Positions 9,019 through 39,519 of a stretch of DNA of 64,000 bases are shown in pieces (within the stretch, counting starts at the first letter, position 1; each line of letters opens with the position of its first letter). Source of the stretch: Cliona cf. orientalis (lineage: Eukaryota > Porifera > Demospongiae > Clionaida > Clionaidae); assembly GCA_963930775.1 (NCBI GenBank), contig OZ005689.1, forward strand, positions 10,242,854 to 10,306,853, read 5' to 3'. The translations under genes and the position numbers were made by a program. Under the pieces are notes generated by a model that saw only the letters and a program-made list of their open reading frames with translations, was not told the DNA's origin and made no database searches.

Positions 9019-10408
9019 TTGGCCTAAGAATACGCCCTACTTCAAGTGATACTGGAAAATTTGTAGGACAGGAGTTCAGTCGTGTGTGTGCCCTCACAGT
9101 GTAAGTTTAATATACACCAATAAACCTTTGTTGTCTATTTAGGGACTGTGTCTTATGTAGCGTGCCCACTGTTCTTTCCAAACCTAGTCGTTGAACGTGA
9201 CGACATGCATGTAAAACTCATGTACATGTGGGACAGCATGCATACGCATACGCATGCATGCATGTACATGTATATTATTGCCATGCAACATTATGTGTGC
9301 TTTATAATGTCGATTAGTGTAGCTAGAGATGTTGGGACATGTCAAATGCTTCCTGTGAACATGGGTATGTACGATAAAAGGTTCCTCTGGAATGGACTAA
9401 TTATAACGTACATTCATTTTCTGTGTATCTATATTGTAGGCGGGTGTAAGATATTTATAATTTAAGTAGAAAGTTGTTAGGAGTCGGTTATTTCCAGGGA
9501 GTTGAAAGTGCCTTGTTTGGCAGCGATATATGCTCATTAACTGAAACAGCTGAGAATTTGTTCTTTTCTTTGATTGTTGTGCTCTTGGCATGTAAAGATA
9601 GAGAGGCATTTGCCGTTGGGAGTGGGCAGCTTCAATTCACAGATTCATACATAAAGTCTTCACAATTGATCTGTGAGCTGTTACTACGAGATGTACTGTT
9701 AGCTTACTATGTTACAAAGGGAATGTGTGGGCAAGGTGCAATTGGGCATCGTTTTAGCACCCACTTTGACATTCGCTCATTGTCTTAGAAGCATTCTATG
9801 GCGATTGTGCCTTTCTACTAACACTCACTTGCATTCGCAATAGAGTACTAACACACTATTCTTTGAATAGAGTCTTTTCACTGCTTGCCTACCCTGCATG
9901 TACATGCAAGGGGTAAAGTAATTATTGGTTTGTCTATGTAGGCAGCACAAAAACAATCCAATATTATACACTCCTGCATGGGTTAATGGAGACCAAACCA
10001 TCTAGCAAAAAATTGACTTGGCTTGTCATGAAATCGAATAATACCACAGCCATGAGCACTAAAATAGTGTTGATCACACCTGTCTTCATGCAACACCCAC
10101 AGCTGTTTCACACACTGAGTACTATTCCATATAAAGCACAAACGTTTATCGGATTTTTGGCTATATACATGTAGTTTATAATTTTTTGTTCATTCTTCCT
10201 CATCCAACAATATGCAGTAATACTGTAGCTGTCACACGGATTGAGTGGCTTCAAGATGGCAGAAATGTCCAAAGTGGTAATGGGTCTACCCTCTCTCTCA
10301 CGATAGATCAAGTGCAGCTGGAACATGCGGGGATGTACTCATGTAGAGCAATGCTCACTAATGGAACCATGCTAGGGCCTGACAATGCTGGCAGGCTAAC
10401 CGTGTTTG
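9019..10408 (+). CDS. A1 exons 1-2: one Ig domain split by an intron
   Basis: Exon 9019-9100 carries the first half of an Ig domain, with the B-strand Cys in RVCALTV. It ends in phase 2. Exon 10218-10408 enters in phase 2 and supplies the C-strand Trp (IEWLQDG) and the F-strand AGMYSC. Only the joined reading gives a complete C-W-C Ig core, which supports the junction. The roughly 1.1 kb intron between them contains an unrelated 104-codon frame that I do not regard as a gene. In copy A2 only the last ~60 bp of exon 2 survive. Confidence 0.72.
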
Positions 10409-13400
10409 GTAAGTGTTGATCAGACAGTACATACTCATTGGTACAGGGTCGTCAAAGTATATTGTACAGATTATGCCAAGTAAAAGCACTGGGTATACTG
10501 AATCCCTATAGTACTCTGAATATTACCAAAATGATTTTGTGTCTGGGTGGATCATGCAAATTGGCACTTACATACATACGTATTATACATGTACGATACT
10601 GTCTTCATTTTAGTGACATATACACACCCTTATTAAGGCGATTAAGGACGGTGCTTACTACATCAATTAAGTCACCAATTCCCATAAGAAGCATGTGCAA
10701 AACAGCATTTGCAGCAAATTAATGCATGCACATGCTTGAAATTAAATCTTGTACATTAAGTATGCACACATCCCTAGTTTTATAATAATACATGTATGAC
10801 ATTGTACTTCACTACATTAAAAAATGTGTATGCACCACATTGGTATTGTGCCTGTGAGCAGACACCACAATGAGGATTCATACTATAGATAATCTCTATT
10901 GCAGATATTGATCTCTACCAGGACTTAGCCTTGTCCCTAGTCTTCCTGATCTTATCAGTGCATGTGCATCATTCAAAATAATAATATTATAGTAATAGGA
11001 TGTGCATGGAGTAATTGTAGACTAGGGTTGCAGCATCAAGATACTGTATGCATATCCTGGTTAAAGAAATGTCATATAAATTTGATCTACATTGGTTTAC
11101 ATTTTCCACATGCAGACACTAGCCCAATCATGGCACCAGAGAATCAGTTTGTAATCTACGGCAAAACTGACACCCTCAACTGTTCCTATGCTGATGCCAG
11201 TGTCAATCCGGTTGCTACAGTAGAGAGAAATGAAGAACTAGTGGTTAATAACGAGATTATTAGCGCCACTCTGGATGATGAGGGAGACTATGAGTGTGAT
11301 ATTTTCCTGCCTCAGCACAGTGCCTCCATTGGAACTCCCTTCATCGTTCATGTTATAGGTAAGCTCTCTTTCTCTCCCCTCTCTCCTCATCGATCCTTTT
11401 CCCTAATGACCTTTTTCAACTGAACAATGTAATGCTGGTCTTGGAATTATAATTAACAGACTTTACCATGGCAATGAACAAACAATGCTCAAGACTGGTG
11501 ACAAAATTAATCAAGGACATATTGATTTCATGGCCAATACGATCCCAATTCACCCATAATTCAATTTGGTGATAATGGGACCTCTTTAGCCTGTTAACAT
11601 CACGTAGACATGCATGTGATAATGCCATATTACCCTGTACATGTACATGTACATATATGTACAGTTTGCATGTACAGGGGAACTCCTCACCAGTCAGTCT
11701 ACAGCCGTACATATGCAGCTGCAAGATTGAGTGGGTGGCTAAAATTCCATTATATGGGCTAAATTACCGCATCAGTCGTATGGTAAAACCCTACTCTAAC
11801 AGTTATTTGTTTGCGTATTTGAAGCCAAGCTGGGGATGCATGATTTGTTGTAGAGCAACTAATTGAGTTTTCCTTAATGTGACTTGGAATCCTGTCCAGC
11901 TGTGGTGATAGGTTTAGTGCCATTACAGTGCTTATTAGCATAGCCGACATAGCAGAGTGGCTGGAAATCATGCTTGCACGTACGTATCAGACCTGACAAT
12001 TGACATAAAAGTGTGTTCTAATTGATAAGCATGCACATGAACAAAACGTGCAATAATTGAAGTTTTATCAATGTTATATATGGCTCTTCTCTCTTCCATC
12101 CTCCCCTTCTCTCTCTCTCCCTCCCTCTCTCTTTCTCTCTCTCCCCACCTCCAATGCTTTATCATGCACACAGTTCCCATAGAAATCATCCGTGCCCCAC
12201 CGGGCGAGACAGTCATTGATAACAATACTCTAACAACTCTATCAGTTGACTTCAATGGACGTACGGGTCAAAACATTCAGATCACCTGGGAGAAAGACGG
12301 TCGCCCACTACCAGCCGAATACCAGGTTGACACAATTTACAACAGTTTAGCTTCCCCTCCAACTGGTAGAACATCTCTGACATTGTCTCAACGCAAAGAT
12401 ACTGGGGTGTATAGAGTTATTATTACCAGCACACTGGGAGCAGGGTCTGTGCCCAGCAATCTCCTCACTGACGAAACCAGTTTTCAAGTAAATGTTATAG
12501 GTAAGTCTATAATATGAAATTTGCAAGAATGATACCCAAACCACTCGCAATTGCCACTCTCACATGTAGTAATGATCACGTTTTCTTGACAATGAAACAG
12601 TACAAAATACATAATAGTATTATGTTTATGCCTACGGATGTGCTCCATTGGACGAAAATAAAAGGATGATCCTTAATTATACTTTCAAGGCTTTGGTTAC
12701 ATTTCCTGAGCAAGGACCATTAGTTGTTTCTGCATATAGGTTGGGATTGGTTGGGATTGGTTGTGGAAGACAAACCTACTGAATTTCTGTGTATGTGTGT
12801 CAGTATCAAGCAATGATAATGACCTTATATTTAAGAATGTATAGTATGTGTATCACAATTTTCTTCAATGTTTGCACAGTGCCTCCATCCAAGCCTAGCA
12901 ATTTCCGTGTGGAACAGAGCAGTGTAACATCAGTGTTTGCCCGCATTCGATGGGATCTCACCAATCAGACGACAGATGCTGGAGCCGATAGACTCATCCT
13001 CCTTCTCACCTACAGCAACATGAGTCTAGTGCAGGAGATTGTACTGCCAGGCAATGCTGAGCAGGTGGCCCTGAACCTCATCCCGGGAACAAACTATTTT
13101 GTTCGATTGAGGGCAGAGAATCCAGATGGCATGATTGTGACTGATCCTGTGGGCATAGAAACTCTTAATGGAAGTAAGTATTATATGTAACAAGGGCTTG
13201 TGCCGAAGCTCTGTGTAATTTTTCTACTTTGTAGTATAGACTTAGATTGTTAAGTATTAACATGTACAATGTCATGTAAGTCCAAGCAGTAAAAGGTATT
13301 GGCCTTTTAATGGTAGAAACATGGCTATATTCACTGTGGATATTGATTATCACTTATTGTATGTCTTTACTCATGCAGATCCTAAGGTAAACGAAATATC

Positions 13401-15621
13401 TGTGAGGCAACTTGGAGCATCAGCTGAATTTGAAGTGTCCACCAGTCTGGCCTACACTGGAGGTGGTGTCATCGATTTCTTTACAGTGTCCTATCGTCAG
13501 TCAACTTTTGGTGAATTCAGAGAGCTTGGAAGAGTATCAACAACTTCAACTAGTGGAGACTCACTCGTTTGGACCGGAACTTTCATTATTTCAGATCCTG
13601 ACTTTGATCCATCTACCGATGGGGAAAATACTCAGTTTCTTGTTTTTGTCTTTAATCAGTTTGGCTTCCAGTCCAATGGATCAGTTGTTTTCGGTATGAT
13701 TTGTGCATGTACACTAAATTACATCAAGTAATACTGCTATAGCGTAAAATCTGAACAAGCTACACGTATGCTTGTACATGCATATTCCTTGCATGGTAAA
13801 GATGCATACATAATTATTAGGCCCCCTCCATCATTGCTAAGCTAGCCTGAACCGTCACGGTACATCTTTTAATGTATTATAATTCCTGCAGCTACACATA
13901 TGCTTATACATGCATATTCCTTGCATGGTAAAGATGCATACATAATTATTAGGCCCCCTCCATCATTGCTAAGCTAGCCTGAACCGTCACGGTACATCTT
14001 TTAATGTATTATAATTCCTGCAGCTACTCCGAGTGAACCCACTACTACCTCAAGTACCCCAATATCAGGACCTAGAGGTATTTAAATGTGCATAAAATCA
14101 TTTCTGTTGCATTGATTGATAATCATTATTACAATATTAATTTTATGTATATTTGCAACCTGTATATGTAGGGAGTGCTAGTCTTCCATTTTGGCTATAC
14201 ATTGTCGTTGCTGTACTGGGGACTGTACTTGTCACCGTCACTATCTTGTGTGCGTGCTTCTTCATTATCCGTGGATGCAAAAAGTCACGAAGAAGTCCCA
14301 AGAATGTATACAAAGTTAACAGCCAGAAAGGTTGGTTGTCTAAACAATATGAGTGGGACAGAAGAATAATAATGTACATCTCCAGCTTTTTGAGGGTGTG
14401 GGAGCAAGATTATACCTTTCCTTAATAAATTTTCCTCATAGGACCCAGTAGCATTCCCTTGGTTCATCGAATCTTAATTTTGAATTGATTGTTTCACTGC
14501 AGGTCTCAGCGATGGAACTATGCAGGATCCTGAAAGTGGTGGCCAACGATATGTGCAACATGTGCCAGACTCATTACCAGTTACTGTACCCAACAATGTC
14601 CAGTGAGTATTCATGGCTATCTCATTTGCATGCTCAGTAGTAAAGTGATGAGTACGGTATCCTAAGATTTGTATTGTATGCATGTGCACATACCTCTCTT
14701 TATCAGCCCTAACCTACCGTAGTACCAGTCTTCGGATCAATAATTATCTCAATGAAATACAACTTCATAATACTTAATTTTTATATTTGCAGCAGTCAAC
14801 CTCATCACAACCCTCAGCCTATAGAGAAGAACATAATCAACTCCCTTCATCATAATAGCTCCGTGCCAAGCATCAAGACGAACTCCTCAAGCCCCACCCC
14901 TCAGCCGGACGATCCGCTACTCAAGAAACCAATATATATCAGCCATCAAAAGTATCCCAGCGATGCTAGCAGTATCATCAAGCGAGGCCCAACGCCATCC
15001 ACAACGGCAAGCAGTAGCCCGGCTCCTGCTGTAATGAAGGCAGCGTACGAGAGACAAATGCAATCGGAGAACGGAAGAGCATCAAGTATAAGCAGCAGTG
15101 TGCAGCACATGGAACAATACTTGCCACCCCAGGATCAGCAAATTGTAGAGCAGGGAAGTGGTGAAATTGAAGTCCAGCAGAGTAGTCAAACCGAGTCGGA
15201 AAATGTCCACATGCAGATGCAGAGTGAGACCTGTTCATATCAGCACCATCAGCACAATCGTCACCATCATGATAGTCAGCAATTTAGCGATCGTCACAGT
15301 CATCAATCTCTCAATATCAGTCAATCAGGCAGCATCCCTCTCTATCGATTGAGCACCCCAACCTCCAACACAAGTGTACCAACCTGCAGCAGCGTGCAGG
15401 GGAGCCAGCCCAGTCTTGTCAACAGCAGCGGGCCATTTCACCAATTTCCCACCCCACACCATCATTCAGCCATCCCTTACCACAGCAGCTATGGCCTCCC
15501 AGCACCAGGATCTGTGACAGGACGAGCAGAGGTGGGCATAGTTTGCGAGCAACCAAATCACTTAGTAGAAACTGATCTAATCTCGAGCCCACAAAAGAGT
15601 CCAACTTTCATCATTGTGTGA
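9019..15621 (+). CDS. Receptor A1: Ig/FN3 single-pass membrane protein (10 exons seen, 5' exon missing)
   Basis: The model joins 9019-9100, 10218-10408, 11116-11358, 12174-12500, 12880-13173, 13379-13693, 14024-14077, 14172-14330, 14503-14602 and 14793-15621. All junctions are GT-AG and all phases match, giving 863 residues from the first exon seen. Order: Ig (1-91), Ig (92-172), Ig without cysteines (173-281), FN3 (282-379), FN3-like (380-484), Thr/Ser/Pro stalk, TM exon, short linker exon, long tail ending TFIIV. Almost every junction is phase 1. The protein should be a type I cell-surface receptor or adhesion molecule. It has no kinase or phosphatase domain. The signal-peptide exon is not found. 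A near-identical truncated copy (A2) lies about 21 kb downstream. The ligand is unknown. Confidence 0.8.
11116..11358 (+). CDS. A1 exon 3: short Ig domain
   Basis: This phase 1-1 exon has Ig features: LNCSYAD gives the B-strand Cys, and DEGDYECDIF gives the F-strand D-x-G-x-Y-x-C. There is no obvious core Trp between them (VATVERNEE in that region). The whole exon is missing from copy A2, where a deletion joins the sequence equivalent to about 10780 directly to about 11419. Confidence 0.7.
12174..12500 (+). CDS. A1 exon 4: Ig-like domain lacking both core cysteines
   Basis: The exon keeps the Ig core Trp (ITWEKDGRPL) and the D-T-G-V-Y F-strand signature. The B-strand Cys position reads Val (LSVDFNG) and the F-strand Cys position reads Arg (GVYRVIIT), so the canonical disulphide is absent. 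The second copy (30096-30422) shows the same losses, so this is a family trait and not a sequencing error. Confidence 0.75.
12880..13693 (+). CDS. A1 exons 5-6: two FN3 domains
   Basis: Exon 12880-13173 is a clear FN3 domain: it opens PPSKPSNF and has the core Trp in ARIRWDL and the Y-F-V-R-L-R-A-E-N F-strand. Exon 13379-13693 is FN3-like but more diverged, with FFTVSYRQ and FLVFVFNQFG in the C' and F strand positions. Both are phase 1-1 exons. Copy A2 holds both at 34255-34548 and 34754-35065, the latter one codon shorter. Confidence 0.78.
13759..14022 (+). repeat. 132-bp tandem duplication in A1 intron 6
   Basis: Two near-identical 132-bp units (13759-13890 and 13891-14022) lie directly before exon 7. 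Each ends in the same 'cctgca|g' acceptor context, so the acceptor of exon 7 exists twice. Copy A2 has a single unit (about 35131-35262), so the duplication arose, or was lost, after the gene duplication. Confidence 0.85.
14172..14330 (+). CDS. A1 exon 8: transmembrane segment
   Basis: After GSASLP comes a hydrophobic stretch of about 26 residues (WLYIVVAVLGTVLVTVTILC and on to FFII), then the basic stop-transfer RGCKKSRR. A 54-nt exon just upstream (14024-14077) encodes a Thr/Ser/Pro stalk. The reading frame stays open past the donor for 31 more codons to a stop, and this read-through peptide is the same in copy A2. Confidence 0.85.
14503..15621 (+). CDS. A1 exons 9-10: cytoplasmic tail
   Basis: Exon 14503-14602 (phase 1 in, 2 out) joins exon 14793-15621, which ends at TGA 15619-15621. 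The tail is rich in Ser, Pro, Gln and His, with a His/Gln cluster (YQHHQHNRHHHDSQQ) and scattered tyrosines (YISHQ, QKYPSD, AAYERQ). There is no catalytic domain. The last residues, SPTFIIV, fit a class II PDZ ligand (hydrophobic at -2 and 0) and are unchanged in A2. A2 differs at 12 of about 252 aligned tail residues. Confidence 0.8.
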
Positions 15622-17881: not shown

Positions 17882-19216
17882 CTACTTTGTGCAGAAGGTA
17901 ACATTGTAAGCTGGACACACTTCTGTAGTGACTTCAGCAGAGTCTAACGGGTGATGTTGATCTGCTGGAGCCTGGACTTGATCATAAATGGCACCTTGTA
18001 GAACTGAGTCTGCATGTGCATGATTTATATTAGTATTAGTTATAATTGCATGGAATTATTTTACCATCTGAGTTAGGTGCTTGTGAACTAGATTTTCTAT
18101 TTTTGAAAGCAATCAGCAACAAAAGAATGATGGCCACAATATTGAGTATCAAAGAAGTAGTGAGACCAGCAATCATACCTGCATGTATGCATGTTCACAG
18201 ATATCCAAAAATTCTCTCATGTCAGTGATATCACATACCATAAAAATTGGTTTTGCTTGGAGATGATTCAACATTATCTTCGACATTCATTCCCAATTCT
18301 GTAACTACATTAAAAGAGCATAATAAATTATTACAATGATAGTTAATATTGTTATGTATACTAACCTGATGCTTCAGAGTGATTTTCCTTGTTCAACTTG
18401 CTCTCAACTACTGCAAAGTATTATGGATAGTAATAATATTAATATATTGTGTTTATCACGAAAATACAGTGAGACCAAAATTTAATAAGAGTTACCTCGA
18501 AATTCTCCTACTAAATCACTGAAGCATATCCTTGGTCTGCACTCTACAATGTCATACTTATTGCAGGCCTGTATGTAAGCACAGTACACTGGTATAGGAT
18601 GTCCAAAAGATGCCAATGGATTTATTTCCAGGACTTCACTGTAGCGAAGGGAGGTATCAGCAGCAGAACTTTTGCAAGCTTCATTTCTATTTGATGTTCT
18701 TCTGATTAAAAATTCATCTGAATTTATATCCATATCTATTCTCTCGTTGATAAACCAAGCAGCTACTGTGTTAAATATGCAAGCATATTTACAGTGAAAC
18801 TGCACTGAATTATTCCTGGTAGCATTTGCAACTGATGGACCACTAAGCATCAGTGCTGAATAAAAAAGGAGCACAACATTGTGGTATAAGGTAATTAATT
18901 TTATTATTGTAATGTCCCTCACGTTTCTCAAAGGATGCATTAAAAGTATTGCTGATATTTCCCTCACCAGCTAAGTTCCAACCTGTGACTTGGAACCCAA
19001 ATGTATCACACTGAAATGCCTTCATCGAGAGCAATGTAAAACCTGGATAAGTGCTATTGTCAAACGATACTTCACCTGTATCATGATTAGTGATCTTGAG
19101 TGTATAAAATAGTATGTCCTCATCTGTATTTGTGATATTGAGGGTAAATGGAGGAGTCCAACTGATTTCAATTGCAGTCAGGTTCGTAGAAATTAGTCTT
19201 ATGTTAGAAGGTGCAG
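17882..19216 (-). CDS. Receptor C: FN3/Ig-like single-pass membrane protein (5' exons incomplete)
   Basis: The exons, 5' to 3' on the minus strand, are 19216-18923, 18855-18496, 18410-18366, 18304-18239, 18178-18065 and 18009-17882. All are GT-AG and all phase 1, giving 334 residues. The first is a typical FN3 domain (APSNIRL start, EISWTPPF Trp, FGFQVTGWNLAGEG). The second is a Cys-rich Ig-like domain (VQFHCKY, VAAWFINE, PIPVYCAYIQAC). Two mini-exons (15 and 22 codons) form a stalk. The TM is LTTSLILNIVAIILLLLIAF. The short tail contains GAIYDQV and ends at TAG. The 5' part, including the signal peptide, is unresolved. Confidence 0.7.
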
Positions 19217-19308
19217 CTAATAATCCTGCATTAGCAATAATTAATACTGTTACAGTAGTAATAATACAACATCATGATGCAACAATAATTCATTTTATAC
19301 CTTGTACT

Positions 19309-19557
19309 ATTAAGTAAGCAACTGGAGACCTCTGTACAATTTGACCATTCTCCACGTTCAGTGCCACACACACTACTTGTGTATTGTTGTTTGCAGCTGA
19401 TGTTTCCACGGTTAAAACTGATGTTGTTCCTGTCTAGCCATTTGTAGTCACAAATGTAACAAGTATAAAAAATAATGTAATTGAAGGATGAAGTAGGGAT
19501 GGCAGGGTCAAAAAGTACACAAACAAGATTTGTAGGGATAATCACATTCACTATCAC
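19309..19557 (-). CDS. Candidate upstream exon of receptor C
   Basis: A cysteine-rich open frame reads CDYKWLDRNN, GNISCKQQY, SSVCGTERGEW and SSCLLNSTR, which looks like an extracellular domain. Its best donor (AG|gtataa) is phase 2, but the next FN3 exon enters in phase 1, and I found no clean acceptor. Either a different donor or an extra exon is used, or this is a decayed exon. Confidence 0.35.
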
Positions 19558-19636
19558 TGCAGTGGTGCAAACTGATCTGAAACTGAACCGTCACTCAGGG
19601 GCGGATCTATAGAATTTTCAATTGATGGGGTTATAT

Positions 19637-20979: not shown

Positions 20980-23900
20980 CTAGCATGACTGTTCCATTGC
21001 TGACCGTTTGCTAGTATCAATGGTTTCATAGTTGCTTGCTGCTGTTGCTTCATTCCACTGATCAGACGGTTTCAGTATGTTATCGGGATTCTCATACTCT
21101 CCCTCCATTGACATCATCCCTGCGGTCTTCAGATTCACTTCACCATAGGCCATGTTTGCTGACACAGCAATATTCTTATTATTTCCAGTACTCTTATGAG
21201 CAGACCTCTTCCTGCAGAGATTGGATTATACAAGTAATAATAACTTGTGACTCCAATTTATATTAATGTAGTTTTGCTATTGTTTTTGCATATTAATATT
21301 ATGGTACTGTAGCCAACTGGGTTGGAAAATTCTATGCTAGTGCATGAGACTATTTTTGGGCCAAGCAACAGTTTTGGAAATATCAATAGTACTAATAATA
21401 ATTATTGTGATCAGCTATGAGCTCGAGAAAGGGGCCATTTGGGACATTTTTTGTTTGTAGTAGTACTTATTAAAATTAAATATGTAGCTTGTTGCATGTA
21501 TGGATAATGTACTGTATATGTATAATCCACTCTACTGATACAAGAATACTAATAGAAACATTTGTAGAAAGTAAACTGGGCATGATCATGATCAAAATAA
21601 GTTACGTTTCATAACTACCAATTTCCCCAAATTCTCCTAGCAAGTCATAATTATTAAATTTACAATTCCCTCACCTCCATAAGCACAGCACAACAATAAT
21701 TGTAATCACCATGACAACCAGGCACTCTGCTAGAATGATTACTCCAATGGCAGTACCAACTTCACTTGAACAACTACACTGCATTTCAGCACATCCAGCA
21801 CATCCAGCACTCAGCTGATGGCTGTTGTCTGATAAGATGTGCATTAAGTTAACACATTGAATAGGGTCTAACTCATTACTCACCTACAGTAATAGATGTG
21901 CTAATAAGCTCACTATACAGTTGATCAGCTTCAGAGCGAACGGATATATTCTGACCAACGTAATTTCCATTGACTCTCAACCCAATGGAGGTAGCAACTG
22001 CCTCTACTGAAGTATTCTTCCCACTGCCATAGTAGATTCTGTATCCAGTGATGATGTTAGCTCCATCAGATGGAGGACTCCAGCTGACCTCCACTGGGGC
22101 AGAGGAACCAGACTGAGTGGCTACAACATCCACTGGGGAAGCAGAAGCTGAAAAAAAATGTCATAGAAGGTAAGGCCTTCTATTATAGCTAGCTAGGTAG
22201 GTATATCATTATGCATACTGGCTTTAATATTGACTGTAGCAGATAGTGTTTCATTCCCTGTGATATAGGTAAAAGCCGGGTCTGGTCCGACAGTAGCCGT
22301 GCAGGTATAGTTTCCAGAGTCACTCCTTCCAAATGACTCAAACTGCCTGGTGTAGGTGAAGGTTGTACCAGACACTGTTGGTCCACTTAGAGCCAATAGA
22401 GTTCCATCCCTGGATAGCTGTGTGTCTACCATCAGCAATAAGAGTTCAGAAGGTACTATAGCTGAATGTAAGTTCAAAGTGCAAGTCAAGGTTACATCAG
22501 AACCAAGAATAGGGAGAGAGTTAGGCCTCGAGCTGCGGTCACTACTCACCAGTGTGATTGAAGATGGACTGGGGACTTGATATATACAAGATTAAATATT
22601 ATTCGGATATAATAGCATGAATGATAATGATAGTCATAAAATTAACTCACATTGAATTCTGACATCAAAAGAATTTGTTGCCGTGATATCACTTGCTAGG
22701 TAGCTTGAGCTGACCGTAACTTCACAAACATAACTAGCAGCATCTGTCAGTCGTAGAGGAGTGAAGGAGAGAGTTTTTAAGTTGGCTCCAACTTGAGTCT
22801 GTCCACTGCCACTGTTCCTAGTCCATCTGTAGGTAATGGTAGGGTTGAGATTTTCAGCTCCAGATACACTACATGTGAGCTGATAGTCTTCTCCAGGTGA
22901 TGGAGTAGCTCCACCTCCACTGACCTGGAAAGACACTAGGGGAGCTAAAAATTGATAGAATATTATAATAGTATTGCATAATAATAGATAATGACATGAT
23001 AATACCGTTGATGATGACATTTAGTGAATCAGACAGAAAAGCAGATCCATCAATAGTACCATTACATGAATATGATCCATTGTCTGACTGCTGTACTGGC
23101 CTAAACTGCAGTTGACTTGAAACAGCATTGGAGGTGATAGTCACTCGTGGGCTGTTCTCGACAACTGGTGTCCTGCCATCAGGTGGTCCCTTTAGCCACT
23201 GAAAGGTTCCCTCAGAGCCACCTGCTGAACACTCCAGTGTGTAGCTCTCACCAGCAATGGGAGAGCCAGAGGCCACGATGGACAATCCTAATAATAATGA
23301 TTATTATAGCTAGCACATAATTCAAGGTGAAATACTGTGTTTACCAATTTCCACACAGAGAGTATGACTGGTGCTAGTAATGTCAGGTACCTCACAACAG
23401 AACCGTCCAGTTGGTGATTCAATGCCACTGGGTCGATTCAAGGACACCTCTCCATTAGCTCCTCTGGTTCTGTAAAATGCTGTGGTTGAAGTAGTCCCTT
23501 GCACTAGTGCTCCATTGGGTTGGTACCACTCTCCACGTCCAGGGTCCTGACTGCAGCAGAAAAGATTGTCAGTGATGCACTGTAGAGCACCGTTGGGGTT
23601 GTCAGAAGATTGACCAATGTCTCTGGTGTTAATATTGCTGTTGTTAGTGATGCGTACACCTCTCAGTGCAAGATAAACACCTGAAAAAGATCATGTTGTT
23701 AGATTGGGGTATTTTTTTTTAAATAATTCTATCTAATACCAGTTGTAATTCTGACTGAATGAGTTGCAGTGCTGCTGCCACTACTAGATATTAAACTGAC
23801 AGTAGCTCTGCAGGTATAGAGTCCAGAGTTACTCCTCCCAAATGAGCTGATTAAGAATGTAGAGGTGTAATTAGTACTGCTTCCCATAACTGGCTGTGCA

Positions 23901-26080: not shown

Positions 26081-26507
26081 GCATACGTACAGTACGAACA
26101 CGGCCAACATCGGAATGGATCGTGGACTGATGAAAGTGGATCGGATTTTGGAGTAGGCGCCCAAATCATTCCCCACTATTAAATATATTGACGACCCTTC
26201 ACGGATTTTGACAGCCGTATGCATCTGCGAAAGTTTTCTTCACATTGCTTCCTACAAACAGAGCAGGTTGTACTACAGTACCGGTACAAGGCTCCACTAG
26301 TTTAATACAATTAGCTACATGTACAAACTACAAATCAAAGGTCCGTTTTTTTTTCCACCAATGAGGTATACGTATATATTAAATATGTTATTCTGCAACT
26401 GGTGGGTTATGACTGGCTTTGTTGTGTATGAAATAAATTTTTGAACATGAACTTAAACCATTATCGATAGTTATATAAATGCTATCAAATTGTATTAATT
26501 CTGTCAT
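26081..26507. other. Intergenic region between B1 (5' end) and B2 (3' end)
   Basis: It must hold the B1 promoter and 5' UTR (minus strand, leftward) and the B2 3' flank. The translated frame upstream of the B1 ATG stays open to 26224. I see no TATA box at a convincing distance and no other gene. Confidence 0.4.
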
Positions 26508-28895
26508 TCACATACTGATATAGTCATGTGTACTAGCATGATTGTTCCCGGATATGATTGCTGGCTGTTTGCTAGTATCAATGGTTTCATAGTTGCTTGC
26601 TGCTGTTGCTTCATTCCACTGATCAGATGGTTTCAGTATCTTATCGGGATTCTCATACTCTCCCTCAATTGTCATCATTACGGCAGGCTTCAGAGTCACT
26701 TCACCATAGGCCATGTTTGCTGATACAGCAATATTCTTATTATTATCAGTATTTTTATGAGTTGACCTCTTCCTGTAGAGATTGGATAATAGATCATGAA
26801 AACTTAATAATGATTATTGACTTGTGATTCTGATCATACTAGCATTATTATTCTGTGCATATAATATTATGACCTGCTATGAGAAAAGGGACTGTTCCTG
26901 CATGGTAGTAGTATAAAACACGATCAATTTTATCATGACAATGTCCCAACCGTACTTTCTACAAATGTATACTTGTATCAGTGTAGTGACGCCAACATAC
27001 AGCGGATACACCTTATTATAATATTATTCCCTACACACTACATGACATTGTATTGTAAGTTACATACTATAATTCGATCCAAATGGTCCCTTTTCTCAGA
27101 GCTGGTCACATTAATTTATTATGGTACTGTAGCTAACTTGTGGGTTAGCAAATTCTATGCTAGTGCACGAGACTATTCAAGTTTGGCCCAATCAATTAAC
27201 TGATTTGGAAATATCAATAGTAGCTATATACCAATTAAAATTCCCTCACCTCCATAAGCACAGCACAACACTGATTGTAATCACCATGACAACCATGCAC
27301 TCGGCTGCAATGATCACTCCAATGGCAATACCAACTTCACTTGAACAACTACGTTGCATTTTAGCACTTCCAGCACATGGCTGCTGGCTGTTGTCTGATA
27401 AGAATTGTAGTAATTGAATTAACATAAAATGAATTGATAAGGTCTAGCTCATTACTCACCTATAGTAACAAATGTGCTAATAAGCTCACTGTACAACTGA
27501 TCAGCTTCAGAGCGAACAGATATATTCTCACCAACGTAATTTCCATCGACTCTCAAGCCAATGTAGGTAGCTACTGCTGGTATTGAAGCATTCTTGCCAC
27601 TGCCATAGAATATCCTGTATCCAGTGATGATGTTAGCTCCATCAGATGGAGGACTCCAGCTGACCTCCACTGGGCCAGAGGAACCAGACTGAGTGGCTCG
27701 GACATCGACAGGGGGTGCAGAAACTAGAAAAAAAAAATTAAGTCAATCATAAGTAGCATAAAGAAGATATATACCAGCTTTAATATTGGCTGTAGCCGAT
27801 AGTGTTTCATTCCCAGTGACATAGGTCAAAGCCAGATCTGACCTGACAGTAGCTGTACAGGTGTACCTTCCAGAGTCACTCCTCTCAAATGAGTTGATCT
27901 GGGTGGTGTAGGTGAAGGTTGTATCTCTTATTGTTGGTTCAGTTAGAGTCAGTGGAGTTCTATCCCTGAGCAGCTGTGTGTCCACCATCAACAACAAGAT
28001 CTCAGAAGCCACTACAGCTGAATTTAACTCCAAAGTGCAAGTCAAGGTTACATCAGAACCAAGAATAGGGAGAGAGTTAATAGGCCTCGAGCTGCGGTCA
28101 CTGCTCACCAGTGTGATGGAAGATGGACTGGGGACTTTGTCAAAGTTGAATAACAATTATATTTATTGTTAGGGTATATAACAAGAATAATACATTAACT
28201 CACATTGAATTCCAACATCAAAAGAATTCATTGCTGTGATATCACTTGTTAGGTACCTTGAAGTAACTGTAACTCCACAAACGTAACTAGCAGCATCAGC
28301 TAGCTAGTCGCAGCGGAGTGAAGGAGAGAGTGTTTGAGTTGGCTCCAACTTGAGTCTGTCCACTGCCACTGTTCCTAGTCCATCTGTAGATAGTGGTAGG
28401 GTTGAGATTTTCAGCTCCAGATACACTAAAGGTCAGCTGATAGTCTTCTCCAGCTGTTGGAGTAGCTCCATCACCACTGATCTGGAATGACACAGGGGGA
28501 ACTAAAAAAATTAAAAATATAATAGCATTACATATTAATAGATTATGACACAACTGTACCATTTATAATGTGATATTTAGTGAATCAGAGAGCAAAGTAG
28601 ATCCATCAACAGTAGCACTGCATGCATATGATCTATTATCCAGTGACTGCTGTACTGGCCTAAACTGCAGTCGGCTTAAAGTAGCAGTGCCACTGGTGGG
28701 TGAAATGGTCAGCCTCGGCCTGCTCTCGACAATTGGTGTCCTACCATCAGGAGGTCAGAGCCACCTGCTGAACACTCCAGTGTGTAGCTCTCACCAGCTA
28801 TGGGAGAACCAGAGGCCGCGATGGACAATCCTACGTAATAATGGTGATAATGATATAGAGCATCATGTAATTGTATTACACTTACCAATTTCCCC
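26508..28895 (-). pseudogene. Receptor B2: 5'-truncated, frameshifted copy of B1
   Basis: It matches B1 exons 7-12: 28830 to about 28565 (Ig), 28501-28204 (Ig), 28134-27775 (Ig), 27723-27460 (FN3), 27394-27250 (TM) and 26772-26508 (tail). Breaks visible: (1) about 25 bp missing near 28760 removes the core-Trp region of the first Ig; (2) an in-frame TAA lies near that exon's donor; (3) the next Ig exon is 298 nt instead of 294, because of a 4-nt 'ctag' gain near 28305, giving an early stop; (4) all exons before exon 7 are absent except about 10 bp of exon 6. The downstream Ig, FN3, TM and tail exons remain open and keep AYGEV, EYENP and SNYETI. Confidence 0.8.
26870..27110. mobile_element. MITE in the last intron of B2
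   Basis: Terminal inverted repeats: gacctgctatgagaaaaggg on the left and cccttttctcagagctggtc on the right. It belongs to the same family as 52061-52420 and the degenerate copy at 21405-21590. It sits on the opposite side of a conserved ~105-bp intron block (27117-27222, matching 21296-21395) from the B1 copy and is inverted relative to it. Confidence 0.7.
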
Positions 28896-28910
28896 AATGC
28901 TCACTAATGG
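28885..28910. other. Rearrangement junction fusing B2 to A2
   Basis: Left of about 28895 the sequence (cttaccaatttcc) matches the donor end of B1 exon 6 (23340-23351, minus-strand gene). From 28896 (caatgctcactaatgg) it matches A1 exon 2 from about 10350 (plus-strand gene). Both parents were cut inside Ig-coding exons, leaving the two truncated genes 5' end to 5' end. At most 1-2 bp of microhomology is visible. Confidence 0.85.
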
Positions 28911-28955
28911 AACTATGCTAGGGCCTGACAATGCTGGCCAGACTAACCGTGTTTG
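28896..28955 (+). pseudogene. A2 exon 2 remnant
   Basis: The last ~60 bp of A1 exon 2 are recognisable up to the donor (tttg|gtaaat). Relative to A1 (ctggcaggctaacc), A2 has one extra base (ctggccagactaacc), so the frame is also broken. The flanking intron is shared to about 29328. There the sequence jumps past A1 exon 3, which is deleted. Confidence 0.8.
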
Positions 28956-30095
28956 GTAAATGTTGATCAGACAGTACATACTCATTGGTACAGGGTCGTC
29001 AAAGTATATTGTACAGATATGCCAGTTATAAGCACTGGGTATATTGAATCCCTATAGTACTCTGAATATTACTAAAATGATTTTGTGTCTGGGTGGATCA
29101 TGCAAATTGGCACTTACATACATACGTATTATACATGTACGATACTGTCTTCATTTTAGTGACATATACACACCCTTATTAAGGCGATTAAGGACGGTGC
29201 TTACTACATCAATTAAGTCACCAATTCCCATAAGAAGCATGTGCAAAACAACATTTGCAGCAAATTAATGCATGCACATGCTTGAAATTAAATCTTGTAC
29301 ATTAAGTATGCACACACCCCTAGTTTTACTGAACAATGTAATGCTGGTCTTGGAATTATAATTAACAGACTTTACCATGGCAATGAACAAACAGTGCTCA
29401 AGACTGGTGACAAAATTAATCAAGGACATATTGATTTCATGGCCAATACGATCCCAATTCACCCATAATTCAATTTGGTGATAATGGGACCTCTTTAGCC
29501 TGTTAATATCACGTAGACATGCATGTGATAATGCCACATTACCCTGTACATGTACATGTACATATATGTACAGTTTGCATGTACAGGGGAACTCCTCGCC
29601 AGTCAGTCTATAGCCGTACATATGCAGCTGCATGTAGCAAGATTGAGTGGGTGTCTAAAATTCCATTATATGGGCTAAATTACCGCATCAGTCATAACAA
29701 TTATGGTAAAATCCTACTCTAACAGTTGTTTGTTTGCGTATTTGAAGCCAAGCTGGGGATGCATGATTTGTTGTAGAGCAACTAATTGAGTTTTCCTTAA
29801 TGTGACTTGGAATCCTGTCCAGCTGTGGTGATAGATTTAGTGCCATTACAGTGCTTATTAGCATAGCCGACATAGCAGAGCGGCTGGAAATCATGCATGC
29901 ACGTACATATCAGACCTGACAATTGACATAAAAGTGTGTTCTAATTGATGAGCATGCACATGAACAAAACGTGCAATAATTGAAGTTTTATCAATGTTAC
30001 TTCTCTCTTCATCCCTCCCTCCCTCTTTCTCTCTCTCTCTCCCTCCCTCTCTCTTTCTCTCTCTCCCCACTTCCGATGCTCTATCATGCACACAG

Positions 30096-33000
30096 TTCCC
30101 ATAGAAATCATCCGTGCCCCTCCTGGCGAGACGGTCATTGATAACAATACTCTAACAACTCTATCAGTCGACTTCAATGGACGTATGGGTCAAAACATTC
30201 AGATCACCTGGGAGAAAGACGGTCGCCCACTACCAGCTGAATACCAGGTTATCACAACCTACGATAGTTTAACTTCCCCGCCAACTGGTAGAACATCTCT
30301 GACATTGTCTCAACGCAAAGATACTGGGGTGTATAGAGTTATCATCACCAGCACACTGGGAGCAGGGTCTGTGCCCAGCAGTCTCCTCACTGACGAAACC
30401 AGTTTTCAAGTAAATGTTATAGGTAAGTCTATATGAAATTTGCACACGTTTGAAACGGTAGCTTAGCCTGATATCCAAACCACTCCCAAATACCACTCCC
30501 ATGTGTGGTAATGATCACGTTTTCTTGATAATGAAACAGTACAGTATTACAAGTATAATATAAGCTTATGATGGTGCTCCATTGGACAAAAATAAAAGGA
30601 TCATCCTTAATTATACTTCAAATTTGGCTTTGGCTACGTTTCCTGAGCAAGCACCATGAGTTACTTCCGCTTATAGGTTGGGATTGGTTGTGGAAGACAA
30701 ACCTACTGAATTTCCATGTATGCACACTGTAAAAAATAGGTTGTTACAGTAACAACCTATACCCCAAGTCAATTTTCCAGGTTGTTGCTCTAACAAGGCA
30801 ATAAAACATACATTGTTACTGTGACAATTGTCATTGTTTGATACACTGAGGGAGATGATTCAGTGTCACATTGTGTTATAAAGTACTCTACCAAGCCCTT
30901 TATTTGACTTTGCACAATTAAATTACGTCTACTGAAATAAGCAAATAGTTTGTGATTGTTTCGAACACTTGGACATGTTCAGATAACAATCCTGGGTTGT
31001 AACAATAATATTAATGATGATGTCATAATATTGTCTGACACACATGCACTGCCACACTAATCATTGTTATGACTATTGATACAGGTACCAAAGATTTTCA
31101 TGTCTTCAATCGATTACTATTAAAATTTTTACCTTAATAATTATTTATATCCGGCCACATTTCCATTAATTATGACTAGCATTATTATTATCAGATTCTA
31201 GCTATACATTAGCTGATCACAACTGCCCAATATCACATAAATCAAATCATGAAGGTTCTAGTAATAGAAGAAGTCTTCTGGAATATGCATGAGACTTGAG
31301 ATTAGACAGCTATATTTATAGTAAGAAAAAATTATCTGGGCAAGATCCATACCTTGCTACCTAGGTATTATACACATAATCAAATTTAACAATAACAGGA
31401 TTGTACTGTTCTAAAAATGTGATATTTTGGCACAACAGCTAGTACTCCAGTAGGCAGAGTTCTCATTTGAAGTGGAAATGGATGTTCTTGATAGTCCAAT
31501 GAGATGATTTTAAATTTTGACACTGGACGGATTGTGTAGCAATGATAATGTGTGTTAAAACCCTCAGATTGATATAGCTGGACATAAGCAACTGGATTAT
31601 CCTGCTGTAACACATATACGTCAAGTACTTTGGCAAATAGTGGTAAATCATTGCTATCGATACCAACGCAAAGGACACAAGCCTTTTTGTATTTGATGCC
31701 ATGTACTTTAATCCAGTTGGCTCTGTATGTACAATAAGTTTTTATAAAAAAATTAATAATTATTATAGTAAAGGTAGACCATTCTCTTATGTACCTATAA
31801 CATTCAATTTCATCATCCTGTAGCACGTCAGGCCGATCTGCAATTGCAAGTGGCACTCCTAGGGTGATAGTATAATAATAATAATAATAATAAGTTAAAC
31901 ATAGTCAGAGAGAGACACACGTAGTTAAATTTAATAATCAGGGGTCATAATCGGATGGCTATGTGGAGATGCATATGGACAGCTATACCATTACACATAC
32001 TCAAAGGAAGATATATCATTCAGAGTTAATTTTGGTACTCGCAGCTGTAATTAATTTATGCATTCATATCTGGTGTGGTGATAATTATTGATCGAAAGGG
32101 AAGAGATGAGGCTAGGAAAGTCCGGCCTCAGTAATGTACATTAAGTTTGGTGTTTGCTGTGTGTACCTACCTATCCAGTACCTGGATCCCTTATCCAATT
32201 CCTATATATAATTATTATAATTATTGTGTATACCTGGCCCAATCTCTGCACTCTCTTGAAATGGGGATCCTTTATTTGAATGGTGATAGCACTGTAGGTA
32301 TTGATGTCTTTTAGCTAATGTGAGACTGATGTTCTTGAAATTCCCTATATTCTGTGCAAGCTTTTTGAAATAGGAATGCTTTGCTTCATATCTCATTGTC
32401 CAATGCTTGACTAGAGGTCCAAACCTAGATATGTAGATAATGATGACATTTTATAATAATTATTATGACTTTATATTGAGGTGTAAGAATTTTGTGGTTT
32501 GAGGCCAGACTGTTATCATCATAATCAGCCCATAACAATTATTATGTGTGCATAACTTGACCACAGTTGATGATATAGAACTTCCTGGGTTATTGGTGGG
32601 AGATAGGACTTAATTATTATATTGACAATGTATGTACTGTATACACATCTTGTGGAATTTACTTGACAATTAGCCTTGGTGTATGGATCAGATAGTGCAT
32701 TTTTGGAATAACAGCAGCACCGGAGTAAAGTTCCCTAAACTTTGTGTGATGTTCCATAATGAGCACACTCAAGTAAGCAGCCTCATCAGCACTAATGATA
32801 GGAGCAAACAAGTAGTCAGCAATCTCTAGCATAAGTAGATAATTCAGCCAATTTTCATCATCCTCAGGGATGTGCTCTCCGATCATGAAAGGCATCAGCC
32901 TACATAGCACCCATGCTTGCATAGCTACAAAGCAAAAGTGCATAATAAAGTTATTTAATGAATCACATGATGTAATACCCCTACCTTTTTGCTTTAAGCG

Positions 33001-36000
33001 ATGATCAGTACTATTCAATGTGTCTAAAGCAATTGCAGCAGGTCTGTCTGTTTCCATGTAACCAAGTTCCATGTTTTCAATCTTCAAGTTTAGCTCCTTA
33101 AGCTATTGTTATTATTATAGGTTAATAATATTGGAATACATATAACATTACCCGAAGATATTGTTGTGATAAAATGCAGTGTTGTAGCATCAGCTTCAGT
33201 TCATGCTGGAGTGCACCTTCCAGAACGTCGTGCATTACATCAGGTAATAGTACACCACTACAAAGGTCGAAATAGTCAAGGGATAGGAAAGCCGATCGAT
33301 AATTGATTCCATAGTCTCTTGATCTCTCGCCTGAACCATCTTCTTCAACCTCGTCCAGTTGTTCAAGGTGCTGATCTAGTGTACGAAGGTGAAAGAAATC
33401 CTCTGAAAACTGGAAGCAAAAAGATAGTTGATTAGCAATTGTGTATAATAAATTTCCCTAGAAATGTTATTAACCTTTCCCTTGATATCTTCAGCACTTC
33501 CTGTACACTGCCTGCATGGTTTGTATGCACTAGCGCTTTCCTTGAAACCACCGAGTGCAGTACTAGCTGGATTATCTGCTGAAACTAGTGCGACAGTACC
33601 ACGATATTTCCTACTTATCCCTTGAATTGTGAAAATGTGACCTTGTTCCTGTATAAAAGGATAGGAGTAAGGAGAGGGACAGAAAGTGCAAGAGATAGAG
33701 AAGAGAGAGATGGGGGGGGGGGGGGGGGGAGAAAGAGAAAGAGAGGGGCAGAGAGAGAGAGAACCACTTGGTATGTTAGTGTGCACGAGGTATTGAATCA
33801 ACTTACAAGTGTACATAGGTCGTTAATGATGGGTTTCATGATGGTTTTCATTTTGTATTTTTTGATGAACTTGTACTTGCAAATAGCAGCCAGTTGTATC
33901 ACCTTTGTTCTGGATCGATACCTTGGATGCAAGTTTCCAAGTTGAAAGTAAAACATTCCTGGGCACATAATATGATTATTGATTAGTATCAAGCAATGAT
34001 AATGACCTTGTATTTGTTTGAACCTACCGTAAATCGCGAATATTTCGATGTTAAAATATTTTCGGACAGCATGGCTTGTGCGAAAATTAAACGTACGAAA
34101 TACATGCGCAATATTAACGACAATGCGGTACAGGGTCGTTTGTCCGAAAATTATTTAACGCGAAAAATTATCGCATGAAATATTTTAGACACGAAATATT
34201 CGCGATTTACGGTATATAGTATGTGTATCACAATTTTCTTCAATGTTTGCACAGTGCCTCCATCCAAGCCTAGCAATTTTCGTGTGGAACAGAGCAGTGT
34301 AACATCAGTATTTGCCCGCATTCGATGGGATCTCACCAATCAGACGACAGATGCTGGAGCAGATAGACTCATCCTCCTTCTCACCTACAGCAACATGAGT
34401 CTAGTGCAGGAGATTGTACTGCCAGGCAATGCTGAGCAGGTGGCTCTGAACCTTATCCCGGGAACAAACTATTTTGTTCGATTGAGGGCAGAGAATCCAG
34501 ATGGCATGATTGTGACTGATCCTGTGGGCATAGAAACTCTTAATGGAAGTAAGTATTGTATGTAACAAGGGCTTGTGCCGAAGCTCTGTGTAATTTTTCT
34601 ACTTTGTAGTATAGACTTAGATTGTTAAGTATTAACATGTACAATGTCATGTAAGTCCAAGCAGTAAAAGGTATTGGCCTTTTAATGGTAGAAATATGGC
34701 TATATTCACTGTGGATATTGATTATCACTTATTGCATGTCTTTACTCATGCAGATCCTAAGGTAAACGAAATATCTGTGAGGCAACTTGGAGCATCAGCT
34801 GAATTTGAAGTGTCCACCAGTCTAGCCTACACTGGAGGTGGTGTCATCGATTTCTTTACAGTGTCCTATCGTCAGTCAACTTTTGGTGAATTCAGAGAGC
34901 TTGGAAGAGTATCAGCTACTTCCAGTGGAGACTCACTCGTCTGGACCGGCACTTTCACTATTTCAGATCCTGACTTTGATCCATCTACCGATGGGGAAAG
35001 TACTCAGTTTCTTGTTTTTGTCTTTAATCAGTTTGGCTTCCAGTCCAATGGATCAGTTGTTTTCGGTATGATTTGTGCATGTACACTAAATTACATCAAG
35101 TAACACTGCTATAGCGTAAAATCTGAACAAGCTACACGTATGCTTGTACATGCATATTCCTTGCATGGTAAAGATGCATACATAATTATTAGGCCCCCTC
35201 CATCATTGCTAAGCTAGCCTGAACCGTCATGGTACATCTTGTAATGTATTATAATTCCTGCAGCTACTCCCAGTGAACCCACTACTACCTCAAGTACCCC
35301 TATATCAGGACCTAGAGGTATTTAAATGTGCATAAAATCATTTCTGTTGCATTGATTGATAGTCATTATTCCAATATTAATTTTATGTATATTTGCATAT
35401 TGTATGTAGGGAGTGCTAGTCTTCCATTTTGGCTATACATTGTCGTTGCTGTACTGGGAACTGTACTTGTCACCGTCACTGTCTTGTTTGCGTGCTTCTT
35501 CATTATCCGTGGATGCAAAAAGTCACGAAGAAGTCCCAAGAACGTATACAAAGTTAACAGCCAGAAAGGTTGGTTATCTAAACAATATGAGTGGGACAGA
35601 AGAATAATAATGTACATCTCCAGCTTTTTGAGGGTGTGGGAGCAAGATTATACCTTTCCTTAATAAACTTTCCTCATAGGACCCAGTAGCATTCCCTTGG
35701 TTCATCAAGAAATTTTGAATCTTAATTTTGAATTAATTGTTTCACTGCAGGTCTCAGCGATGGAACTATGCAGGATCCTGAAAGTGGTGGCCAACGATAT
35801 GTGCAACATGTGCCAGACTCATTGCCAGTTACTGTACCCAACAATGTCCAGTGAGTATTCATGGCTATCTCATTCGCATGCTCTGTAGTAAAGTGACGAG
35901 TACGGTACCCTAAGATTTGTATTGTGTGCTGCACATACCTCTCTTTATCAGCCCTAACCTACCGTAGTACCAGTCTTCGGATCAATAATTGTCTCAATAA

Positions 36001-36866
36001 AATACAACTTCATAATACTTAATTTTTATATTTGCAGTAGTCCACCTCATCACAACCCTCAGCCTATCGAGAAGAACATAATCAACTCCTTTCATCATAA
36101 TAGCTCCGTGCCAAGCATCAAGACGAACTCCTCAAGCCCCACCCCTCAGCCGGACGATCCGCTACTCAAGAAACCAATATATATCAGCCATCAAAAGTAC
36201 CCCAGCGATGCTAGCAGTATCATCAAGCGAGGCCCAACACCATCCACAACGGCAAGCAGTAGCCCGGCTCCTGCTGTAATGAAGGCAGCGTACGAGAGAC
36301 AAATGCAGTCAAAAAACGGAAGAGCATCAAGCATAAGCAGCAGTGTGCAGCACATGGAACAATACTTGCCACCGCAGGGTCAGCAAATTGTAGAGCAGGG
36401 GTGTGGTGAAATTGAAGTCCAGCAGAGTAGTCAAACTGAGTCGGAAAACGTCCACATGCAGATGCAGAGTGAGACCTGTTCGTATCAGCACCATCAGCAC
36501 AATCGTCACCATCATGATAGTCAGCAATTTAGCGATCGTCACAGTCATCAATCTCTCAATATCAGTCAATCAGGCAGCATCCCTCTCTATCGAGTGGGCA
36601 CCTCAACCTCCAACACAAGTGTACCTACCTGCAGCAGTGTGCAGGGGAGCCAGCCCAGTCTTGTCAACGGCAGTGGGCTATATCACCAATTCCCCACCCC
36701 ACACCATCATTCAGGCATCCCTTACCACAGCGGCTATGGGCTCCCAGCACCAGGATCTGTGACAGGACGAGCAGAGGTGGGCATAGTTTGCGAGCAACCA
36801 AGTCACTTAGTAGAAACTGATCTAATCTCGAGCCCACAAAAGAGTCCAACTTTCATTATCGTGTGA
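30096..36866 (+). CDS. Receptor A2: 5'-truncated copy of A1, exons 4-10 intact
   Basis: The exons are 30096-30422, 34255-34548, 34754-35065, 35264-35317, 35410-35568, 35751-35850 and 36038-36866. Their lengths match A1 exons 4-10, except for one codon lost in exon 6, and all remain open (690 residues). The exons encode the Cys-less Ig, two FN3 domains, stalk, TM and tail with the TFIIV end. The signal peptide and first two Ig domains are gone. Unless a new 5' exon is recruited it should not be made as a normal surface receptor, so it may be a pseudogene in progress or an exon donor. Intron 4 has grown from 0.4 to 3.8 kb through transposon insertion. Confidence 0.75.
30725..33984 (-). mobile_element. 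CACTA/EnSpm-like DNA transposon in A2 intron 4, right end missing
   Basis: Comparison with A1 shows a 3.26-kb insertion between gaatttccatgtatgca and agtatcaagcaatgataatg. The left end begins cactgtaaaaaataggttg and contains the small palindrome gttacagtaac. The same start occurs in the element at 38306. No matching cagtg terminus is visible at the right end, so that end appears deleted. A degenerate transposase-like gene runs leftward inside. Confidence 0.7.
31386..33992 (-). pseudogene. Transposase-like gene of the CACTA-like element, fragmentary
   Basis: Minus-strand blocks in order: GNLHPRYRSRTKVIQLAAIC with FIKKYKMKTIM (33992-33798); a Cys-pair segment KPCRQCTG (within 33600-33470); GINYRSAFLSLDYFDLC with LPDVMHDVLEGALQ (about 33410-33150); a block with HHTKFRELYSG and IPKMHYLIHTPR (33087-32659); MRYEAKHSYFKKLAQN and SLTLAKRHQYLQ (32396-32202); and a C-terminal block (31856-31386). 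The MHDxLEG and PKxHYLxHxPR patterns are, from memory, typical of CACTA-type transposases and related animal proteins. The 5' end is missing at the truncated right edge. Some blocks may be true exons, as donors such as cgg|gtaatg are present. Confidence 0.6.
34025..34214. mobile_element. 190-bp MITE with 23-bp TIRs, TA target site
   Basis: The ends are taccgtaaatcgcgaatatt(tcg) and its exact reverse complement, with TA at both borders, as in Tc1/mariner-type insertions. It is absent from the equivalent A1 intron (about 12835), so it entered after the A1/A2 duplication. Confidence 0.8.

Positions 36867-39437: not shown

Positions 39438-39519
<82 letters not shown>

Follow-up and report, generated by a model that had tools for sequence, protein, structure and literature searches.

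A sponge Ig/FN3 receptor cluster whose gene order probably reflects a head-to-head junction of two partial copies

The allorecognition complex (Alr) of Hydractinia contains clustered single-pass receptors of the Ig superfamily (IgSF) together with many pseudogene-like models, and ITIM/ITAM motifs are reported on Alr candidates in sections of two papers (PMC11067881, PMC12065747). In Botryllus, sections of the latter describe the fester co-receptors (FcoR) as having an IgSF ectodomain made of a V-type Ig, a sushi and two C2 Ig domains, a transmembrane (TM) segment and a tail with an ITIM, hemITAM or core Y-x-x-I/L/V motif; the same review terms the mechanisms of invertebrate allorecognition “a complete mystery” (PMC12065747). 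Vertebrate inhibitory receptors of the LILRB type combine a multi-Ig ectodomain with an ITIM-bearing tail (part of PMC11999971), and sponges possess other Ig-bearing surface proteins, namely Ig adhesion molecules and TIR-Ig receptors (parts of PMC11999971 and PMC7308585).

The genes analysed here lie in a window of 64,000 nucleotides from Cliona cf. orientalis (contig OZ005689.1). In layout they resemble Alr, with clustered, putatively single-pass IgSF receptors and pseudogene-like members, and differ from it in having eight Ig domains and an FN3-like exon in the B family. The ectodomain, TM and signalling-motif tail recall the FcoR proteins, but a sushi domain was not reported by Pfam for the B1 or A1 genes described below. 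The likeness to LILRB-type receptors is likewise one of layout only, with an FN3-like exon here, and in contrast to the sponge TIR-Ig receptors Pfam reported a TIR domain neither for B1 nor for the portion of A1 that was modelled. No published description of the B family was recognised by title or opening of the abstract, in a search that left subscription journals mostly outside its scope.

Receptor genes and partial copies follow one another in the order A1 (+), C (-), B1 (-), B2 (-) and A2 (+). A preliminary description had A and B each occurring twice in the same orientation. This layout is real, except that A2 and B2 are only partial copies, and the shared orientation holds within each pair; since A lies on the plus strand, and B and C on the minus strand, B2 and A2 stand head to head. 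When the window was compared with itself, A was found at 10349-17006 and 28895-38286, with C between the two copies, and B at 20977-23307 and 26530-28851, with ends reaching 23355 and 28896 under relaxed scoring. At the junction (28884..28900) B homology directly abuts A homology with an overlap of about 2 bp.

A1 (9019..15621, plus strand) was modelled from candidate splice sites of consistent phase, an open frame and Pfam matches. The ten exons lie at 9019-9100, 10218-10408, 11116-11358, 12174-12500, 12880-13173, 13379-13693, 14024-14077, 14172-14330, 14503-14602 and 14793-15621, with a strong candidate splice acceptor at 9019; the 5' start and signal peptide were not found. The architecture is three Ig domains, FN3, an FN3-like domain, a stem, a TM assigned by eye and a long tail. 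Pfam places A1 among Ig proteins, with Ig_3 at 52.1 bits over two stretches (cut-off 30) and I-set also above its cut-off; its fn3 score of 23.0 bits falls under the cut-off of 25, which one exon of an A relative exceeds (27.6 bits). Upstream of the window, at a distance of about 20-49 kb, the same strand carries distant relatives of A. In three genome searches, in which 2 of 2, 53 of 54 and 40 of 73 candidates were scored, no further close copy of A was found. The C gene, placed approximately at 17885..19433 on the minus strand from open reading frames, would encode an Ig-like fragment, FN3, a cysteine-bearing domain, a TM and a short tyrosine-carrying tail, labelled mostly by eye; its fn3 score (21.6 bits) is under the same cut-off, and two other pieces of C had no Pfam match. 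A genome-wide search with the DNA of the C region returned only repeats among the 40 scored of 2305 candidates.

B1 (20980..26038, minus strand) is a single open model of 12 exons and 1129 residues, running from 26038 to 20980 and ordered as signal peptide, Ig1-Ig8 in two sets of four, FN3-like exon, TM and tyrosine tail; the signal peptide, FN3-like exon and TM were read by eye. Ig superfamily membership is given by Ig_3 at 136 bits (cut-off 30), whose six stretches compare with eight Ig exons, the Ig label of Ig1 and Ig5 being by eye. An AlphaFold model of the Ig1 exon, from a two-row alignment, had a mean pLDDT of 50.3, no relatives of the Ig5-type domain were confirmed among 31 stretches of viral contigs and 24 of genome contigs, and no fn3 match to B1 was listed by Pfam up to E 0.05. 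Of the 17 other family genes fetched, 6 share the order of the 11 exons that follow the signal peptide, and a reading of the 21-26 kb region as two separate genes was therefore rejected; the remaining 11 genes run past the end of the fetched stretch, have no hit for at least one exon (often the TM) or are rearranged.

B1 and B2 both belong to a large and dispersed family with eight Ig domains, an FN3-like exon, a TM and a tyrosine tail. Counting that of B1, one family exon has 31 copies of at least 74% identity, 25 of which lie on the contig here called C15; annotation covered 19 family genes, and two more served only for comparison with B2. The Ig2 cassette exists in two classes which are shuffled among family genes, the class being unlinked to the trees of Ig1 or Ig4-5.

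A2 (28896..36866, plus strand) is a young segmental copy of A1: homology runs through the introns, and the two are each other's closest copies among the candidates scored. It lacks everything 5' of the middle of exon 10218-10408, and about 637 bp absent at 29327..29328 take in exon 11116-11358. Seven intact 3' exons are kept (30096-30422, 34255-34548, 34754-35065, 35264-35317, 35410-35568, 35751-35850 and 36038-36866, where 36866 is the stop), together with a 58-bp remnant of one more exon with a 1-bp shift. An A2 intron holds 3.26 kb which A1 does not have (30722..33984), and a 190-bp palindromic MITE-like repeat at 34025..34214 is 96-100% identical to the copies listed, which are on many contigs. 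On the left A2 is flanked by B2 and on the right by dispersed repeat sequence, apparently two elements (38304..40298), at which the homology ends.

The two A copies had been called nearly identical even in introns. They are indeed close, with 97 of 2328 aligned non-exonic sites differing up to the stop (K 0.043), but unevenly so, the segments ranging from 0.019 to 0.139 and the 3' flank being more diverged (K 0.097). The dS of 0.10 exceeds the non-exonic divergence, which is unexplained. With a dN/dS of 0.16 (bootstrap 0.10-0.26), and 2 indels in 2132 aligned exonic sites against 14 in 2297 aligned intronic sites (P 0.005), A2 was probably constrained during most of the time since it arose, and might produce a short receptor with the layout Ig-FN3-FN3-TM.

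B2 (26395..28896, minus strand) retains Ig6-Ig8, the FN3-like exon, TM and tail; the exons 5' of Ig6 are missing, Ig6 and Ig7 carry frameshifting indels, and it is presumably a pseudogene. It is clear that its nearest relative is not its neighbour. Over exons e8-e12 it is 96.3% identical to a gene at 7.80 Mb on C15, 93.7% and 90.6% to those at 7.74 and 7.78 Mb, and 88.3% to B1; it groups with the C15 gene at SH-aLRT/bootstrap values of 99.8/100, and a forced clade of B1 and B2 is rejected (delta lnL 108). The greater closeness to C15 holds in each of these exons and in the alignable introns. Around Ig8 and the FN3-like exon, 6 of 184 sites in three introns differ from the 7.80 Mb gene (K 0-0.05), and dS in these two exons is 0.02-0.05 to that gene versus 0.25-0.27 to B1, while the introns of B1 and B2 differ by K 0.29-0.83. 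In a genome-wide DNA search three C15 genes rank above B1 among the 40 scored of 389 candidates. On these grouping, intron and clade results B1 and B2 were rejected as sister duplicates, and the older local duplication proposed for them before is disfavoured. That B1 and B2 are more diverged than A1 and A2 stands (dS 0.19-0.27 in three exons against 0.10; introns as above), but the difference in dS, put forward as a test for two events, arises because B1 and B2 are old family members and not from two local events.

The closeness to C15 is itself uneven. The Ig6 exon is marginally nearest B1 (K 0.164, against 0.184 for the 7.78 Mb and 0.209 for the 7.80 Mb gene), the intron that precedes it is distant from B1 and from every C15 gene compared, and the flanking introns are less close to the 7.80 Mb gene (e7/8, K 0.115; TM-tail, K 0.119). 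B2 is therefore a mosaic, and no donor was found for the whole of it. Its part from Ig7 to the tail, being closest to C15 members, would reflect recent copying or conversion. Within a dispersed family that exchanges sequence, look-alike neighbours can be mistaken for local duplicates.

Since B2 and A2 are truncated copies meeting at one breakpoint, near 28,895, the order A1-C-B1-B2-A2 of this mixed cluster of putative type I Ig/FN3 receptors is probably, judging from the sequence, the head-to-head junction of this partial pair beside B1. In this reading A1 has its distant relatives upstream, B1 is an outlying family member and C, judged by its FN3 exon, has no near copy. Alternatively, one block from inside A (10349) to inside B2 (about 28895) could have been duplicated in tandem, with later loss of a second C and B. 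This is a possibility to be taken seriously, if not the expected course of events: it predicts a B end against an A start, as observed, fits the start of A2 in mid-exon and is compatible with the closeness of B2 to C15. However, relaxed blastn within the window gave no second C or B to the right of A2, the FN3 exon of C has no near copy elsewhere in the genome (next best 45%, on contig C5; 90 of 90 candidates scored), and the model needs a large deletion afterwards.

An older local duplication of B followed by a younger one of A, as first proposed, is improbable. The two pairs do differ in divergence, and B2 and B1 lie in tandem with 643 bp from the tail of B2 to Ig1 of B1, within the 548-997 bp of four neighbouring C15 pairs; but most of B2 would have to have been converted later for it to be nearer the C15 gene, and of nine family upstream regions only three match the B2-to-B1 intergenic stretch above shuffles, over the signal-peptide exon only. 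An assembly artefact, with A2 and B2 as another locus or haplotype mis-joined, has very little probability and the haplotype form is, on the sequence alone, unlikely because, though a 4% difference falls within the range of divergent haplotypes, the A2 flanks are unlike those of A1 and A2 carries insertions and a deletion of its own; furthermore, the window contains no N, and the mis-join would have to land in a short overlap inside two genes.

An unstable cluster of recognition or immune receptors had been suggested. The instability holds, and the proposed link to recognition gains support: family size, clustering, shuffling of the Ig2 cassette and ITIM-like tails favour cell-surface recognition receptors as the predicted products. 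The ITIM motif is (S/I/V/L)xYxx(I/L/V). Of the 15 family tails, 11 contain this strict form, that of B1 among them, and four do not, and a Yxx-hydrophobic motif is in all 15; these are raw counts from frames picked by motif content, which bears on them. ITIM-like Yxx(I/V) motifs and YxN motifs in B-type tails are predicted to be docking sites for SH2-domain proteins, and recombination among family members would renew the ectodomains. More speculatively, and with some reserve, the B family could be a repertoire for recognition, hitherto undescribed, in an early-branching animal. C15 would be the main complex, whose arrays of 8-Ig receptors recombine and with which outlying copies such as B1 and B2 exchange sequence across contigs; these receptors would have tyrosine switch tails and an Ig2(-Ig3) cassette in two interchangeable versions. 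If true, the family would supply testable candidate self/non-self receptors with inhibitory-type tails, possibly in an early-branching animal.

It is less probable, though a real possibility, that these are instead ordinary adhesion or guidance receptors with no role in recognition. The layout of A1, three Ig and two FN3-type domains, resembles that of generic adhesion molecules, the Pfam matches of A1 are generic, and every mean dN/dS is below 1. Against this stand the large family with its shuffled Ig2 cassettes and a mean dN/dS, as plain means, that is higher in Ig1-Ig4 (0.46-0.59) than from Ig5 to the FN3-like exon (0.30-0.38).

In the assembly (216.8 Mb, 149 contigs) the window lies at C1:10,242,854-10,306,853. 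Comparing it with itself returned two long repeat sets, A (10349-17006 and 28895-38286) and B (20977-23307 and 26530-28851, extending to 23355/28896 under relaxed scoring), together with shorter repeats. Splice-phase modelling places the receptor gene A1 at 9019 or before to 15621 on the forward strand and B1 at 26038 to 20980 on the reverse strand, with 12 exons encoding 1129 residues; C, also on the reverse strand, occupies about 17.9-19.4 kb. In Pfam, the Ig domains of A1 and B1 score above cut-off and the fn3 domains of A1 and C fall slightly under it; fn3 is not listed for B1, and its FN3-like exon, signal peptide and transmembrane (TM) exon were therefore labelled by eye. An intron of A1 carries a 132-bp tandem duplication (13758-14027, forward strand, 98% identical) that is single-copy in A2. 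The repeated A and B genes and C of the preliminary description are largely as first seen, except that A2 and B2 are without their 5' ends and stand head-to-head.

It had also been proposed that A1/A2 and B1/B2 arose by two local duplications of different age, and this history does not hold. In comparison with B1, B2 lacks 25 bp of Ig6, has 4 bp inserted in Ig7 and shows smaller indels. When exons e8-e12 were concatenated for 14 of the 19 annotated family genes, B2 shared 96.3% identity with a gene on another contig (C15:7.80 Mb), against 88.3% with B1, and B2 grouped with the C15 gene with support of 99.8/100. Forcing B1 and B2 into one clade cost 108 log units (AU P < 1e-50); with this closer relative on C15, they are rejected as sisters. 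When the whole genome was searched at the DNA level and 40 of the 389 candidates were scored, three C15 genes outranked B1.

The introns of B2 flanking Ig8 and the FN3-like exon differ from those of the C15:7.80 Mb gene at 3/69, 0/54 and 3/61 sites, while B1-B2 introns have K of 0.29-0.83. The match is less close ahead of Ig7 (6/57) and from TM to tail (22/203), where the nearest relative is a gene at C15:7.74 Mb (18/460 sites differ). Ig6 of B2, by contrast, lies at about the same distance from every gene sampled, with B1 closest by a narrow margin, and the intron ahead of it is far from all of them. B2 is thus a mosaic, and no full donor turned up among the sampled family genes. The TM-tail intron also contains a dispersed repeat (26856-27123) with 75-79% identical copies on many contigs.

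B homology gives way to A homology within about 2 bp near 28,895. The same junction would result if a tandem duplication had spanned mid-A to mid-B2 and the remainder had later been lost, but a relaxed comparison within the window found no second C or B right of A2, and the next best genome match to the FN3 exon of C is 45%. The junction may reflect one event or two.

A2 begins within the A1 exon at 10218-10408, lacks about 637 bp including the exon at 11116-11358, and holds 3.26 kb of intron sequence missing in A1. It carries a 190-bp MITE-like repeat, which dominated the candidates (40 of 1487 scored) when that 3.26 kb was searched against the genome; the right end of A homology adjoins a dispersed repeat at 38304. 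Up to the stop, A1 and A2 differ at 73/2132 exonic and 97/2328 non-exonic sites; the 3' flank has diverged more (116/1282), and divergence is uneven among segments (K 0.019-0.139). Seven 3' exons of A2 are intact with every splice site kept, and indels number 2 in exons (one within the truncated exon) against 14 in introns (P 0.005). dN is 0.0165 and dS 0.101, a ratio of 0.16 (bootstrap 0.10-0.26). Had A2 drifted freely since copying, a ratio of about 0.5 or more would be expected; the lower value therefore points to constraint, either on A2 itself or on the lineage from which it was copied. Between 10349-15621 and 28896-36866, dS (0.10) is about twice the non-exonic divergence (0.043). No further close copy of A was found in genome searches scoring 2 of 2, 53 of 54 and 40 of 73 candidates; C1:10.19-10.23 Mb carries two distant relatives in the same orientation (exon matches 29-39% identical, E < 0.01).

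The main interest lies in the receptor family and not in local gene order. Searching with the Ig5-type exon gave 488 candidates; all 150 that were scored match, on 16 contigs, and among them at least 31 copies, counting B1, share 74% identity or more with B1 (25 on C15, six over C1, C2, C13 and C19). The Pfam matches of B1 do not cover this exon (domain at 23346-23678), which is highly abundant genome-wide, with further groups on C8, C7, C1 (4.9 Mb), C11, C6 and C18. All 11 exons of B1 after the signal peptide recur in identical order in 6 of 17 other family genes fetched, on C15, C13 and C2; the remaining 11 run off the edge of the sequence fetched, have no match to at least one exon (often TM) or are rearranged. 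In two C15 family genes, L061 (1413-4700) and L069, some Ig exons are additional or repeated, which points to domain gain inside genes. The tail pattern occurred 14 times against none in a reversed control. By raw counts in 15 tails, with frames chosen by motif content, Yxx-hydrophobic motifs occur in 15, YxN in 12 and strict ITIM-like motifs in 11.

Two classes of Ig2 can be told apart, with identities of 52-62% from one class to the other and 69-92% inside a class; the divergent Ig2 of gene L066 (43-56% to all) was counted in the second. Mapped on trees of Ig1 and of Ig4-5, each with 13 genes, the classes are as scattered as shuffled ones (5 changes against 4.6; P 0.86 on either tree), and linkage to Ig3 is partial (3 against 5.3, P 0.053, 15 genes), several branches of these trees being weakly supported. 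Mean dN/dS, a descriptive value from 11-15 of 19 genes for each exon, is 0.46-0.59 for Ig1-Ig4, 0.30-0.38 from Ig5 to the FN3-like exon and 0.42 for the tail, excluding exons with stops, broken frames or coverage below 75% and any pair whose dS reached 1.5. In Ig2, dN exceeds dS in three pairs crossing the classes, but not in class averages. From the shuffled Ig2 classes and these ratios, domain cassettes appear to pass between family genes and the membrane-distal half appears to evolve faster. This fits recognition receptors and does not prove such a role; the immune-type link suggested earlier thus gains support from beyond the window.

Other features were noted in the window. At 62098-63995 (reverse strand) a further receptor-like gene was recognised by eye from exons resembling fibronectin, a hydrophobic segment like a TM and a tyrosine tail, with five of its pieces giving no Pfam match; an ORF at 60407-60790 on the same strand, with a PIYQEI motif, is perhaps the tail of another receptor. 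A reverse transcriptase at 43881-45626 (forward strand) consists of two same-frame ORFs with a stop codon between them and is accompanied by a weak endonuclease match, and a Jacalin-like lectin domain at 53340-54029 (forward strand, 88 bits) adjoins the receptor cluster.
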